From positions 1 to 64,000 of the forward strand of contig NZ_SLXT01000002.1 in NCBI RefSeq assembly GCF_004341395.1: 64,000 bases of DNA, written 5' to 3'. Origin of the DNA: Heliophilum fasciatum (GTDB taxonomy: Bacteria; Bacillota; Desulfitobacteriia; Heliobacteriales; Heliobacteriaceae). How positions within the stretch are numbered: position 1 is the stretch's first letter; each line of letters opens with the position of its first letter. The position numbers and the translations under genes were made by a program. This document shows, in pieces, positions 43,698-59,137 of the stretch. Below the pieces are notes generated by a model that ran no database searches, was not told where the DNA came from, and was given only the letters and a program-made list of their open reading frames with translations.

Positions 43698-43772
43698 CGG
43701 TTTTATCTCCCTTCATCGCTCTTTTTCTTACGGTACGAACAAGTTAACCATTTTAGGATAGCGTAACAGAGA

Positions 43773-43824
43773 AAAAAGCAGCCTCACGACAGCCAATCAT
43801 TGGCATCGTGAGGCTGCTTTTTTA
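43773..43824 (-). terminator. Terminator of the XRE-S24 repressor gene
   Basis: A long stem AAAAAGCAGCCTCACGA / TCGTGAGGCTGCTTTTT with a further TTGGC / GCCAA pairing inside; poly-T on both strands, so it may stop both the repressor transcript and any antisense transcript. Confidence 0.9.
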
Positions 43825-43856
43825 CGCAACCCGCTAACTTGTCAAGGACAAAGACC

Positions 43857-44621
43857 TTAGCGCACCGCACTTGATTTGGCCACCTTGGCCATAACCTCGA
43901 CCATTTTTTCCACTTCCACGCCACTTAGGCCGGCTTGAGTGGCTTTTTCGATCGCGCCTTCCCACTGCGTATCGCGATCTTCTTTAACCGCCAAGATGGA
44001 GCGATAGTCCTGCAGCGACGGTGGCTGCTTTTGAATGCTTACCACGTAGCCAAGAATGCGCGTGTGCGGGCCTACAGGTAGATCTTCATAGTAGGGATTC
44101 GCCGCCCGCAGCCACGCTTGCCCGCCTTCCACGACATAAAACTTCAGCGTCGCCCGCCACTCACCGTCATCCATGCCGGCGGCAACAATCATGCCCGGGC
44201 GCGGCGTATCGGTCTGCCGCAAAATGGCGATGTCGCCGTCGCTGATCCCGGCCCAGGACATACTGTCGCCGGAAACATGCAGGGCAAAATCAGCATGCAG
44301 TTCATCAGGCACAGCGATCTCGCCCTCAATATGCTCATCGGCCAACAGTGGAATCCCCGCTTTGATCGTCCCAAGAATCGGTACCCGTTCCAGTGGCTTG
44401 GCAGCCCGCAGATCGATGTCCCTTTCCATGCGCCCCAAGATGTAGTCAACGGACGTGCCAAAAAAGTCCGCCAGTGTTCGCAACGACTTATAATCGGCTT
44501 CACTGCTGTTTGTCTCATAGCGCGTATAGGTTGAGCGCTTCAGTCCCAGGTAATTGGCTACTTCCTCCTGATTCACGCCTTTGCGTTCCCGCAGCTTTTT
44601 CAAGCGTTTGCCTACGTCCAT
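43857..44621 (-). CDS. XRE-family repressor with LexA-like S24 peptidase domain
   Basis: This 254-residue protein resembles phage cI/ImmR-type regulators. Start ATG 44621 has GAGG eight bases upstream. Residues 1-60 are an XRE helix-turn-helix (KLRERKGVNQEEVANYLGLKRSTYTRYE). Residues about 80-210 are an S24 peptidase domain with the Ala-Gly cleavage segment LGTIKAGIP (88-89), the catalytic Ser120 in HVSGDSM and Lys160 in RATLKFY. All residues for self-cleavage are present, so it may be inactivated on DNA damage (RecA-dependent), as in lambdoid repressors. An inverted repeat at 44666 covers its promoter. It is divergent from the DUF1659/DUF2922 operon. Confidence 0.85.
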   Translation of the reverse strand: MDVGKRLKKLRERKGVNQEEVANYLGLKRSTYTRYETNSSEADYKSLRTLADFFGTSVDYILGRMERDIDLRAAKPLERVPILGTIKAGIPLLADEHIEGEIAVPDELHADFALHVSGDSMSWAGISDGDIAILRQTDTPRPGMIVAAGMDDGEWRATLKFYVVEGGQAWLRAANPYYEDLPVGPHTRILGYVVSIQKQPPSLQDYRSILAVKEDRDTQWEGAIEKATQAGLSGVEVEKMVEVMAKVAKSSAVR

Positions 44622-44665
44622 TTTTATCACCTCATATCCTGATACCCTTATTATACGTTACGTTA

Positions 44666-44690
44666 TTGCACACGGAAATATGATGTGCAA
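44666..44690. promoter_or_regulatory. Inverted repeat, probable operator of the XRE-S24 repressor
   Basis: TTGCACA (44666-44672) and TGTGCAA (44684-44690) are perfect inverted copies with an 11-base centre. They lie between the minus-strand -10 TATAAT (44655-44650) of the repressor gene and the -35 of the plus-strand promoter at 44709, a typical position for an operator controlling both. Confidence 0.5.
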
Positions 44691-44708
44691 AAAACTCACA
44701 AAAGATAC

Positions 44709-44737
44709 TTGACGTGCGTTTTTGTAACATATATAAT
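44709..44737 (+). promoter_or_regulatory. Sigma-A-type promoter of the DUF1659/DUF2922/YvrJ operon
   Basis: TTGACG (44709-44714) and TATAAT (44732-44737) are 17 bp apart, a near-consensus promoter, with AAGGAGGTGAT beginning about 11 bp downstream. Confidence 0.8.
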
Positions 44738-44761
44738 CAGGGACACAAGGAGGTGATGCAA

Positions 44762-44923
44762 ATGCACAAACGAATTCGCGACAGGCCATTTTTTTACCCA
44801 ATGATGTTACCAAAATTCACACAACAAGCGCACATTACAAGCACCCAAAATAATCGTCTGTCCGCACAGAAAGGAGCTATTTTATGGCGACTACCGCTCA
44901 ACCCCTCTACCGGCGCGGCATGA
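44762..44923 (+). CDS. Possible 53-residue leader ORF
   Basis: A perfect AAGGAGGTGAT ribosome-binding site precedes this ATG by four to eight bases, which is the main support. The 53-residue product is basic (MHKRIRDRPFFYP) with no recognised family, and it overlaps the first 40 bases of the DUF1659 gene in another frame. It may be a short real gene or simply a coupling leader that delivers ribosomes to the DUF1659 start. Confidence 0.35.
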   Translation: MHKRIRDRPFFYPMMLPKFTQQAHITSTQNNRLSAQKGAILWRLPLNPSTGAA

Positions 44924-45108
44924 TTGTCATCCAACCGGCCGTCAATCAGCAAGGGATGCCGGTCCTCAAGCAAGTGGCCATCCCGAACTTACGCCCTGAA
45001 AGCAATCAAGCCGACATCTACAGCACCCTTCAAGCTATCGGCCAATTACAGCGTCATCCCGTAACCGGGATCATGACCGTTGATACGGCCGAACTGATCG
45101 AAGCGTAA
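44884..45108 (+). CDS. DUF1659-like small protein
   Basis: This 74-residue protein is preceded by AAAGGAG. The sequence (YRRGMIVIQPAVNQQGMPVLKQVAIPNL, then DIYSTLQAIGQLQRHPV) is that of the DUF1659 family, which in Bacillota is commonly encoded with DUF2922 and YvrJ proteins. The function of the family is unknown. It is the first of four small genes sharing the 44709 promoter. Confidence 0.72.
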   Translation: MATTAQPLYRRGMIVIQPAVNQQGMPVLKQVAIPNLRPESNQADIYSTLQAIGQLQRHPVTGIMTVDTAELIEA

Positions 45109-45123
45109 AGGAGGTGAACAAGC

Positions 45124-45348
45124 ATGGCAGTAACCTTAACCCCTCAAAGCACAGCACTGCTCATTTCCCTTGAAGAGGGCACAACCACTTCGGGCAGTCC
45201 CAAGTACAAAACCTTGACCTTTAGCAACATCAACACCGGCGCGACCAACCAAGACGTTTACGACATCGGCGCCGCACTGGCCGGTTTGCAAAATAAAACT
45301 CTCTATCAGATCGAGCGCAAAGACAACGGCACACTCGCCAGCGCTTAA
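45124..45348 (+). CDS. DUF1659-like small protein (second copy)
   Basis: This 74-residue protein lies 15 bp after the first DUF1659-like gene, with AAAGGAGG before the ATG. It has the same layout: a beta-rich N-terminus (KYKTLTFSNINTGA) and a helical C-terminus (QDVYDIGAALAGLQNKTLYQIERKD). The two copies are divergent in sequence but equal in length, indicating an old duplication. Confidence 0.7.
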   Translation: MAVTLTPQSTALLISLEEGTTTSGSPKYKTLTFSNINTGATNQDVYDIGAALAGLQNKTLYQIERKDNGTLASA

Positions 45349-45473
45349 TCCCAGGCTGACAGGATGGTTTTACCTTACATCCAGCCCTACATCCGGTAAC
45401 CTCATCCTCCGAACCCCATTTGGGCGGAAAAATCATCATCACGTAAAATAAAAAATTAGAGGAGAAATGAACC

Positions 45474-45698
45474 ATGGCTAAAGTACTTCGTATGACCTTT
45501 GCCACCAGTGAAGGTGGCTCCTTTCAACTGAACATTCCCGATCCGCTGGACACGCTCGATTCGACGGCCATCGCCAACGCAATGGACCTGATCATCACCA
45601 AAAACGTCTTTACGACCAAAAAAGGCAATCTGGTGAGCAAAAAAGACGCCGTCGTCGTCGAAACCACGATGACGGACCTGTACACCCCGGCCGTTTAG
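45474..45698 (+). CDS. DUF2922-family small protein
   Basis: This 74-residue protein has AGAGGAG before the ATG. Sequence AKVLRMTFATSEGGSFQLNIPDP, then TAIANAMDLIITKNVFTTKKG, is characteristic of DUF2922. Family members almost always sit with DUF1659 and YvrJ proteins, as here. The function is unknown; the three may form one small complex. A 125-bp gap separates it from the second DUF1659 gene. Confidence 0.75.
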   Translation: MAKVLRMTFATSEGGSFQLNIPDPLDTLDSTAIANAMDLIITKNVFTTKKGNLVSKKDAVVVETTMTDLYTPAV

Positions 45699-45845
45699 CC
45701 GATATTCCCTAATTTCTTTCCGTAATTACCGGACTTCTCTTACCTTTGAGCGGGATCACCTAAGCAGGTGCCCCGCTCCCATCACCTCAGAAAATCAAAT
45801 TTCAAAAACAAAAATCATATAAACTCTGAGAGGTGACTCCTTCCT

Positions 45846-46040
45846 ATGGACGAGCAACTCCTGCGCAGCGTTGCCGACGTCGGCTTCCCGATCGCCATCG
45901 CCAGCTACTTGTTGATCCGTTTTGAACCGCTGATCAAAGGACTGGAAAACACGATCCACATGCTGACGCTGATCATCGCCAAGCAGCAAGACCTGAACAT
46001 CGAAGAGGTCAAGCCCTTGATCAAAGGCGTGAACGGTTAG
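45846..46040 (+). CDS. YvrJ-family small membrane protein
   Basis: This is a 64-residue protein with one hydrophobic segment (about residues 7-25, GFPIAIASYLLIRFEPL) and an amphipathic C-terminus. The opening MDEQLLRSVADVGFPI is the YvrJ family mark. GAGAGGTGACTCC precedes the ATG. In the family this gene accompanies DUF1659/DUF2922. It would place the small-protein set at the membrane; the function is unknown. Confidence 0.75.
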   Translation: MDEQLLRSVADVGFPIAIASYLLIRFEPLIKGLENTIHMLTLIIAKQQDLNIEEVKPLIKGVNG

Positions 46041-46380
46041 CGCAACAAGCGAATTCCCGTATATTCCTTACCCCTAGGCCCTCCTAAATAAAAAACCCGA
46101 TCATAAAGCCCCAGGAATTCTTGAATTAAAGATTTCTGGGGCGTTTTACGTTCAGGAAGATATCACTGTCAGGTCCGTTAAATCAGGAGAGCATCAAGGA
46201 TTTCCGGGTTTCCCTTTTTCGGAAAATATAACGCCACGATGAAGCCACAATGAAATCATGCTATACTAAATTCATCTGAATTGGTATTTTATTTTTATTT
46301 TATGTATTTAGCGTTGACGAAAATCCGCGAGCGGTGTGCCGCTTTTGCCATACACTTTTGTCCAAGGAGGTTGTTCGATC
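46041..46380. other. 340-bp intergenic region
   Basis: It holds the terminator at 46108-46147, an inverted repeat TTTCCG / CGGAAA (46201-46206 and 46220-46225), and a probable extended -10 promoter TGCTATACT (46259-46267) for the hybrid kinase. Nothing else was found. Confidence 0.6.
46108..46147 (+). terminator. Terminator of the DUF1659/DUF2922/YvrJ operon
   Basis: Arms GCCCCAGGAA and TTTCTGGGGC, with a 15-base loop, followed by GTTTT on the plus strand. Confidence 0.75.
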
Positions 46381-48603
46381 ATGCCTACATCTATCCGCTC
46401 GGCACTTACACTCTTACGTACCGCTCCGTCTTCGTTAAGCAAAACGATATTATCCGTGATCTTTGGTTTTGTTTTTTTGATTGTTACCACCCTTTGGGGA
46501 ACGCTCTACTTCAAAATCTCCCAAGAACGGGAAGCCGAAATCCAGCGCACTTATACAGAACTGTCCAATTTGTCCAAAGCCTTCGAAGAACATATTGTCA
46601 GTGTCATCAACACAACCGACCAGGATTTATTACTGCTAAAATCAATTTATGAAAAACAGGGCCACCAGGGACTGAACACAGTCAAACAAGGCATTATTAC
46701 CCCTATAAAAATCAAAGAAATGGCGCTTTTCGATGGGTCCGGCCAAGCGATTTACACGACGCTCCCGCCACGCCCAACAGCGGAACCGCTGAACATCGCC
46801 AATCGCCCTTATTTTACCGTTCACCAGAACCAAAGTGCACAGTCGCTTTACATCAGCCCGCCGCTCAACGAGGACTTGACGGGGAAAGCAGGGATTCCCT
46901 TTAGCCGGAGCCTCAATCATCCCGACGGCTCCTTTGCCGGTGTAGTCGTGACGTGGGTCGAATCGGCTTATATTTCAGATTTTTATCAGAAATTCGACCT
47001 TGGGAATAATGGTCTCATCAACTTTGTCAGCCTCGATGGCCTGGCCTATGCCCGGCGCGTGAACAATAATGCCGAATTCGGTCAGGACTTGCGCCAGACC
47101 AAGCCCTATCAAAAAATTATGGCCAGATCGCTCAGCGGTAATGAAGAAACGGTCAGCCCTATCGATAACGTGCCGCGCTTTGTCCATTACCAGAAGCTAC
47201 CGCAATACCCCTTTTATCTTTCCGTCGGTATGTCGCAAAGCGAAGCATTGTATGCCTTTCATCAACGGGAAACAATGTACTATTTATGGGCCTCGATCGT
47301 GACTGCCGGGGTCATCGCCTTTGGTATCCTATTGATCCTCTTGCTCTCCCAACAGCATCATTACGATCGTGAAAAACAAGAAAGCCTGTATGCCATACGC
47401 ACCGCCGAAGCGGCCAATCAAGCGAAAAGTGCTTTTCTCGCCCACATAAGCCATGAAATCCGCACACCGATCAACGGCATCATTGGTATTAGTGAGCAAA
47501 TGATCGAACAGCCTATGAGCCCGATTTTAAATCAATATGCCACCATCATCAGGCAATCAGCGGAAGCGTTACTGCAAATCATCAACGATATTCTCGATGT
47601 AACCAAAATGGAATCGGGCCGGTTTTCGATTGTGACGGCCCCCTTTGACCTTCGTAACTTACTTCAGGAAGTCATTGAGCTGCTTATCCCCAAAGCAAAG
47701 GAAAAATCAATTTCCTTGCATACCCAGATTAACCCGGAGATCGCCCCGGTCATCGTCGGTGACGCGTTGCGCGTTCGCCAGGTATTGCTGAACTTGCTTG
47801 GTAATGCCGTCAAATTCACCGACCAAGGTTCCGTAACCATCGCTGTTACGCTGCAACCCGGTGGAGAGCATTCTGAATGGATTCATATTGCCGTGCAAGA
47901 TACAGGCATTGGCATCGATACCGGCGATCAAGCACATCTTTTTAGGCCCTATGTGCAAGCCAGCAACCACGCCGGGCACAAGTATGGCGGTACCGGTTTA
48001 GGATTAGCGATCAGTAAAGATCTGGTCGAACGTATGGGAGGACAAGTCGGCCTACAAAGCCAAAAAGGCCAAGGTTCAACCTTTTGGTTTACCCTTCCTT
48101 ACCAGCCTTTCCACTCCACTGTTGAACCCGGTGATACCGTTGCTCCTGGTCCTACCGGCGAAACCGGCCCCGACACAAGTAACTCGGGCAACGTGGCATC
48201 CCTGCAAGCAGCACAGGCGATGGAGCTTCCTGTCTTACTGGTCGAAGATAACACCGTCAACAAGCTGATAACTGTCATGCAACTCAAAAAGCTGGGCTTT
48301 ACACAAATCGATACCGCCATGAACGGCCATGCAGCATTGGAAGCCGCCAACACCAAACCCTATGGATTGATTTTAATGGACGTAATGTTACCGGACATGA
48401 CCGGCGACAAGATCACCCAAAAAATCCGTGAATCTGAACAGTCGCTTAATCGCCATACACCGATTCTGGCACTGACCGCCCAAGCCATGGATGACGCTCG
48501 GGAACGGTGCTTTGATGCCGGTATGGACGGTTATGTCATCAAACCGATCCATTTCGCTCAGTTACGCGATGCCATCGTCGAAGTATTGGCTAAAAACTTA
48601 TAA
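46381..48603 (+). CDS. Hybrid sensor histidine kinase / response regulator
   Basis: This is a 740-residue membrane kinase; ATG 46381 is preceded by AAGGAGG. Two membrane segments (about 20-42 and 300-325) flank an extracytoplasmic PDC/dCache-like sensor domain of about 250 residues ([14 protein letters not shown], then LYISPPL). The HisKA dimerisation domain has the phosphoacceptor His in [19 protein letters not shown]. The HATPase follows ([30 protein letters not shown]). After a Gly/Pro-rich linker a receiver domain has its aspartate in [13 protein letters not shown]. No HPt domain, so phosphate is probably passed within the protein or to an unlinked partner. Confidence 0.92.
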
Positions 48604-59026: not shown

Positions 59027-59056
59027 AAAAAAACCCCTGGACAACGATTGCCCAGG
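59027..59056 (-). terminator. Riboswitch-controlled terminator in the pflB leader
   Basis: On the minus strand CCTGG and CCAGG form a stem around a 10-base loop, followed by GGTTTTTTTG. The 5' arm is part of the conserved CCGCCTGGGC of the riboswitch, so folding of the ligand-bound aptamer prevents this hairpin. Confidence 0.8.
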
Positions 59057-59120
59057 CGGTCGGCATAAAAGCTCAATCACACTCCCTGTGGTATACTCCA
59101 CTTCCGCCAGTCGTGTGATT
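59050..59120 (-). ncRNA. ZTP/ZMP riboswitch (pfl motif)
   Basis: In the 5' leader of pflBA, reading the minus strand: helix AATCACAC / GTGTGATT (59120-59113 with 59082-59075) encloses GACTGGCG, a GTGG / CCAC stem and GGGAG. A linker leads to the conserved GACCGCCTGGGCA (to about 59048). This is the pfl RNA motif, which binds ZTP or ZMP (AICAR), signals of low 10-formyl-tetrahydrofolate. The overlapping terminator indicates an ON switch: the ligand permits pfl transcription, and the formate it yields can feed one-carbon units. The fold is inferred from the sequence motif; it has not been modelled. Confidence 0.85.
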
Positions 59121-59137
59121 GCGTAAATTCAATTACT

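Follow-up and report, generated by a model that had tools for sequence, protein, structure and literature searches.

In clostridial bacteriocin release, the sigma factor UviA, the holin UviB and an amidase form a set, according to the passages of PMC9527704 that treat this system. The gene yvrJ of B. subtilis is stated to be transcribed by SigO-RsoA in the corresponding passage of PMC8103513. In PMC11170907, the passage on gut viral contigs names PF11148, PF12841, N-acetylmuramoyl-L-alanine amidase, Mor and recombinase together among the common functions; this list agrees with a link to phages, though DUF2922 was not found in the viral collections that we searched. We found no open-access paper on DUF2922, and in the passages concerned, none of the papers found assigns a role as a holin or in release to YvrJ, DUF1659 or DUF2922. 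Here, we analyze a stretch of 64,000 nucleotides of Heliophilum fasciatum (assembly GCF_004341395.1, contig NZ_SLXT01000002.1, positions 1 to 64,000), referred to as the window, in which the gene of an XRE-S24 repressor lies divergently from an operon of small genes encoding two DUF1659 proteins, a DUF2922 protein and YvrJ (Table 1). We consider it about an even call that this operon is a copy of a widespread DUF1659-DUF2922-YvrJ cassette with an optional peptidoglycan hydrolase, working like a holin/endolysin release unit. Probably, the cassette is a regulated module for lysis or protein release, and not a lone phage switch, because related genomes place the triad beside holin genes and genes for enzymes that cut the cell wall.

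The small genes form a genuine module that is widespread in Bacillota. DUF1659 was found in 48 of the 61 genomes of a class sample and DUF2922 likewise in 48, and DUF2922 was found in 130 of the 249 genomes of a phylum sample. We compared 152 DUF2922 genes from the window and from 149 stretches around matches; it should be noted that this set was selected, and comprises most of the listed matches of the phylum sample and some of the copies from multi-copy genomes. DUF1659 is directly upstream of DUF2922 at 149 of these loci, YvrJ is downstream at 100, and both neighbors are present at 99. All four small proteins of the window are named by Pfam, in agreement with the sequence-only reading, i.e., an earlier interpretation of this DNA made without database searches. 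A mutual relationship of DUF1659 and DUF2922 was considered and rejected (hhalign probability 2%), and a single-sequence fold of DUF2922, with a predicted local distance difference test score (pLDDT) of 52, was not used. Searches for YvrJ in phages gave only matches with E >=0.4, which were discarded, and a second query gave none at E 0.1.

Nine of 11 aligned YvrJ proteins match the PHROG holin family phrog_4898 (best E 6e-8), and the YvrJ copies of Geobacillus and Paraclostridium plasmids match this family, too. Judging from its amino acid sequence, YvrJ of the window consists of a short hydrophobic helix (GFPIAIASYLLIRF) followed by a helical tail. The motif G[FP][FP]x5[WYF]LL is present in 95 of 99 distinct YvrJ open reading frames (ORFs), and none of 5604 other ORFs in the range of 40-120 aa has it; the YvrJ set was gathered by profile, and the comparison describes a family motif and is not an independent test. 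The spacing of this motif is that of the consensus of the TpeE/BhlA holins, which is given in the relevant passage of PMC9527704 as G, then PFAxLFx[WY]LL. Among the YvrJ-less loci with a next gene (n = 29), Phage_holin_4_1 was detected in three, all of one family (L309 and L335, which were checked singly, and L312, which is similar by eye). At another YvrJ-less locus (L290), a match to the holin family phrog_13712 (E 1.9e-4) stands behind a weak hemolysin match (phrog_1193, E 0.005); no holin was seen at the other YvrJ-less loci inspected. Unrelated holins can occupy the position of an absent YvrJ.

To describe the genes that follow YvrJ, we took as the next gene a same-strand ORF of at least ~90 aa starting within 400 nt, which yielded 77 genes at the 100 YvrJ loci, the window included. 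The longest ORF was picked, a choice that may err, and at one locus (L204, 1 of the 27 amidase cases) it was replaced by hand with the amidase. In Pfam, 27 of the 77 next genes contain Amidase_2, five Peptidase_M15_3, five Peptidase_M15_2, one VanY and one Amidase_3, where the counts may overlap. The genes upstream of DUF1659 (n = 127) served as a control, and no such hydrolase is present among their 25 commonest families. A local amidase profile gave 27 matches downstream on the same strand, one upstream and one downstream on the opposite strand; the 27 downstream amidases span 11 families, as counted by taxonomic family labels. On Geobacillus plasmids, ComK is followed by DUF1659, DUF2922, YvrJ and an M15 peptidase that matches phage endolysins (phrog_2649, E 1.7e-46); in one such plasmid record, names are missing for the small genes, and YvrJ carries no annotation. 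A hydrolase supplied from elsewhere in the H. fasciatum genome was sought and rejected as a candidate: one amidase homologue was found on contig C8, in an apparent prophage and not linked to the operon. We read its surroundings (L349, C8:119278-119628) as a prophage-like lysis region that contains a repeat-rich tail-like protein, a small membrane protein and the amidase homologue.

Regulatory genes recur at the other end of the module. Sigma-like genes precede the module on its own strand at 14 loci (16 matches), and sigma-70 regions were confirmed by Pfam in all seven that were tested. ComK and Mor genes are found near plasmid copies, and one further plasmid copy has neither. In the window, it is the XRE-S24 gene, not a sigma factor gene, that stands beside the operon. 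The presence of sigma factors, ComK and Mor beside the module suggests that exchangeable, dedicated control is common, and the S24 repressor would be one more kind of it. At one locus (L344), the order is DUF1659-DUF2922-DUF1659, a sigma-like gene with HTH_16, and then YvrJ, with the regulator inside the operon and a weak sigma match in Pfam. Two other kinds of genes recur in this neighborhood: a DUF3102-type gene beside the module in several genomes of the class sample (L200, L202, L207-L211, L228, L230; PF11300 in 7 of the 127 upstream genes), and HlyD/efflux-type genes upstream of it, mostly divergent (L193-L206 and others; HlyD families in 9 of the 127).

The repressor itself has the sequence features of a self-cleaving protein, as was stated in the sequence-only reading: both domains were found by Pfam (Peptidase_S24, E 4.1e-22; helix-turn-helix (HTH) domain HTH_3, E 3e-13), and the likelier start, ATG at 44621 with GAGGTGAT five bases ahead, places the catalytic residues at S120 and K160 and the Ala-Gly site at A87-G88. 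In an AlphaFold2 model built with seven homologues (pLDDT 84), LexA is the best fold match. Compared to the orthodox LexA equivalog TIGR00498, the protein scores 82.5 bits, below the cut-off of 110.95, and the nearest relative of its HTH among solved structures is ImmR of ICEBs1. The C-terminal tail (43857-44024) is predicted by AlphaFold2 to form a two-helix hairpin, is common to long homologues of the repressor, and is weakly SinI-like: the match to the SinI/SinR dimerization family NF046031 has E 0.021 and 14.9 bits, versus a cut-off of 80, and five of eight homologues match it at E <=1. No SinI match of the tail was found in Pfam, and its PDB matches include no SinI or SinR. The tail might serve antirepressor binding or oligomerization.

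The LexA DNA-binding domain PF01726 was not found in the H. fasciatum genome, whereas each of the 20 relatives searched has at least one match. The assembly, a draft in 73 contigs, is 99% complete; thus, the lack of LexA is likely, not proven. The S24 peptidase domain PF00717 was detected in this genome only in the repressor of the window and in one S24 protein on contig C1. The latter (L093, C1:201457-201801) has no recognized HTH. If LexA is indeed absent, the repressor of the window is the only HTH-S24 protein found.

In a release unit of this type, YvrJ, with its one short hydrophobic helix and an amphipathic helix, would perforate or thin the membrane, and a hydrolase would open the wall; such an enzyme is encoded beside YvrJ in many species, and here would come from elsewhere or be absent, i.e., the copy in the window would have to work without an adjacent hydrolase. 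The DUF1659 and DUF2922 proteins may be partners, timers or cargo. A release unit would have to stay off, and lineages appear to use different dedicated regulators for this, namely a sigma factor, ComK, Mor or, as proposed here, a LexA/CI-type repressor. The most likely target of the repressor is its own promoter, which it would repress through the region 44666-44690; it may also silence the operon or set its level, and RecA-stimulated self-cleavage would switch the cassette on. This predicted induction by DNA damage is based on the intact S24 catalytic residues and on the apparent lack of LexA.

A number of observations weigh against the interpretation of the operon as a release unit. YvrJ of the window has no match in PHROG, and phrog_4898 is not found with it even at E <=1; the proposal is therefore that the protein works like a holin, not that it is one. 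It is followed by a 755-codon kinase-like ORF and no hydrolase. In the larger sample, YvrJ is missing at 52 of the 152 DUF2922 loci, so that the core of the module is DUF1659-DUF2922, and neither of these two families has a solved structural relative. DUF2922 was not found in 50,697 phage records or in five scans of viral contigs. Of the next genes, at least 43 of 77 fall outside the four hydrolase families Amidase_2, M15_3, VanY and Amidase_3, and 10 of the 77 contain SPOR domains, which are not known to be typical in endolysins of phages. The inverted repeat is a candidate binding site of the repressor, and is not statistically significant.

The sequence-only reading had taken the locus for a phage-type switch with a membrane-associated output. 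In its full form, the small-protein operon would be the output of a bistable, DNA-damage-inducible switch, and the repeat would be the shared operator; we regard this as doubtful. The divergent layout is a fair match, the survey favors a phage-like, membrane-acting output, and the intact S24 residues, the near-consensus operon promoter and the apparent lack of LexA are in line with such a switch, as are the homologues L004 and L007, which by our reading adjoin small XRE-like genes in the manner of repressors of phages or integrative and conjugative elements (ICEs). However, no cro-like gene lies opposite the repressor, and the cleavage residues are not kept in every homologue (L004 and L005 lack Ala-Gly, L006 lacks Ser). 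The repeat TTGCACA-N11-TGTGCAA is exact, as had been noted; nevertheless, among 2000 dinucleotide shuffles of the 140 bp that separate the repressor from a 53-codon ORF, 298 contain a perfect 7-bp repeat whose arms are 3-20 bases apart, and the repeat is thus not beyond chance alone. It covers the presumed -35 of the repressor and lies ~19 bp upstream of the operon -35, off the operon promoter; if it is an operator, it would be autoregulatory first. The exact sequence occurs once in the H. fasciatum genome and in none of 60 other genomes, and no second credible copy was found in the former. A regulon was considered and rejected: there are 132 places per strand with <=3 mismatches versus 54 in a read-backwards control, and the lone site with one mismatch lies inside a stretch that we read as apparently coding and aroE-like, which argues against a regulon. 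The SOS box GAACN4GTTC is absent from the window (1 expected). Evidence against the switch also comes from other genomes. Using 139 loci of repressor homologues (sets of 30, 29 and 80, with flanks of <=1.5 kb in the first two), we found the small genes at the window locus alone and at 0 of the 138 others; it should be noted that the sets partly overlap, with some genomes present twice, and that many loci match the HTH or the S24 part only. Matches to the repressor above 170 bits are present in four other genomes of the 61, three of them nearly whole length (G001, G005, G040) and one over residues 77-253 only (G019), and none of the four is near the listed DUF1659 or DUF2922 matches. DUF1659 and DUF2922, in turn, each occur in 48 of the 61 genomes. 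The small genes are therefore usually found without the repressor, the outcome that was named in the sequence-only reading as one that would refute it.

The pairing of repressor and operon is private to this genome, and its effect is a prediction. It could be explained by a chance neighborhood, in which a repressor of a mobile element lies beside an independent, constitutive small-gene operon; we think this somewhat unlikely. The position of the module varies among heliobacteria, the repeat is not significant and the two units have separate terminators, all of which, like the restriction to one genome, favors this explanation. On the other hand, the start of the repressor and the opening ORF of the operon are only ~140 bp apart, a space that contains both promoters, and dedicated regulators beside the module are common. 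A role in sporulation or in the mother cell, where the cassette would lyse or remodel the wall in spore formation or germination, appears improbable. DUF1659 belongs to a sporulation cluster of discriminative domains in the relevant passage of PMC2955703. The SPOR domains of the next genes point in the same direction, and DUF2922 is present in 118 of 215 SpoIVA-positive versus 12 of 34 SpoIVA-negative genomes (Fisher p 0.04, a value that ignores relatedness). However, the presence of members in those 12 SpoIVA-negative genomes and in Thermotoga maritima, together with the absence of DUF2922 from 97 of the 215 SpoIVA-positive genomes, speaks against this role, and the operon promoter of the window is of the sigma-A type. 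Finally, the occurrence of the triad on plasmids could indicate that the DUF pair and YvrJ form a stability module of the toxin-antitoxin type, which we consider very improbable: in the genomes sampled, the module lies mainly on chromosomes, hydrolases adjoin it, and no antitoxin family was found in the Pfam scan.

Both transcription units, the repressor and the small-gene operon, end in their own hairpin terminators; neither these hairpins nor the 53-codon ORF had been mentioned in the sequence-only reading. The bidirectional hairpin between the sodA-like gene and the repressor folds on either strand, with energies of -32 to -34 kcal/mol and z values of -9.4 and -7.6, and 0 of 200 shuffles equal it. 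The near-consensus operon promoter of the sequence-only reading was recovered by the promoter scan as the sole promoter-like site in 43700-46400; 2.9 sites are expected in shuffles of this region, and the call therefore rests on the quality and the place of the site, not on numbers. The Shine-Dalgarno sequence of the 53-codon ORF sits a few bases past the expected transcription start. This ORF, which possibly encodes a leader peptide or is due to chance, has no clear family (best PHROG E 0.03; none in NCBIfam). Elsewhere in the window, Rfam recognizes a ZMP/ZTP riboswitch (RF01750, 68.6 bits) at 59043-59124, on the minus strand.

Table 1. Features of the repressor-operon locus in the window (coordinates of the 64,000-nucleotide stretch)
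Feature	Position	Strand	Details
Bidirectional intrinsic terminator	43775..43823	both	between sodA-like gene and repressor; T run on either side
XRE-S24 repressor, 254 aa	43857..44621	-	HTH 1-64; LexA/CI-like peptidase; C-terminal helical hairpin 203-253
Possible repressor -10, TATAAT	44650..44655	-	read from sequence; lacks a consensus -35; absent from the promoter scan calls
Inverted repeat TTGCACA-N11-TGTGCAA, candidate (auto)operator	44666..44690		perfect 7-bp arms
Operon promoter TTGACG-N17-TATAAT	44709..44737	+	promoter scan, 11/12 consensus bases
53-codon ORF	44762..44923	+	near-perfect Shine-Dalgarno AAGGAGGTGATG; overlaps start of first DUF1659
DUF1659 copy 1 (divergent)	44884..45108	+	Pfam PF07872, E 2.9e-13
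DUF1659 copy 2	45124..45348	+	Pfam PF07872, E 3e-23; phrog_20302, E 4e-9
DUF2922	45474..45698	+	Pfam PF11148, E 1.5e-23; phrog_21372, E 5e-11
YvrJ, holin-like small protein	45846..46040	+	Pfam PF12841, E 5.4e-13, 48.7 bits (cut-off 29.5)
Operon terminator hairpin	46108..46142	+	-21.4 kcal/mol, z -4.8, 0/200 shuffles equal

If the cassette is a release unit, three Pfam families without an assigned function, one of which, DUF2922, was found in roughly every second genome of the phylum sample, would gain a testable function, namely passage through membrane and wall. Small units for lysis or secretion would then be present in many Bacillota, with a separate switch for each, and the heliobacterium would offer a natural example in which a LexA-type repressor is in control. 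A bolder version, which we put forward as speculative and rather unlikely, is that of an undescribed, host-owned protein release system of the holin type in Bacillota, with the DUF pair as cargo or gate and with exchangeable hydrolases and regulators; in this heliobacterium, whose genome would have no LexA, a LexA-like repressor would link the system to DNA damage.

Compared to the UviA-UviB-amidase sets, the module shares a dedicated sigma factor, a holin of very small size that combines a short helix with an amphipathic tail, and a nearby amidase. It differs from them in starting with two DUF proteins, and no bacteriocin was found; in the copy of the window, moreover, an S24 repressor takes the place of the sigma factor, and an amidase is lacking. 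The likeness to phage holin-endolysin cassettes (phrog_4898, phrog_199, phrog_822, phrog_2649) consists in a protein of a holin family followed by an amidase or an M15 endolysin, whereas in the module DUF1659-DUF2922 is the constant part, the copy in the window is not surrounded by phage genes, and DUF2922 was not found in the phage collections searched. With yvrJ of B. subtilis, the module has in common a YvrJ protein under a dedicated sigma factor; in that case, however, the passage of PMC8103513 describes neither a DUF1659 or DUF2922 partner nor a function. The repressor of the window resembles LexA and the repressors of the lambda/ICEBs1 type in the S24 fold, the Ser-Lys dyad and the Ala-Gly site, and is distinguished from LexA-type proteins by an XRE domain in place of the winged helix and by the extra C-terminal helical hairpin.

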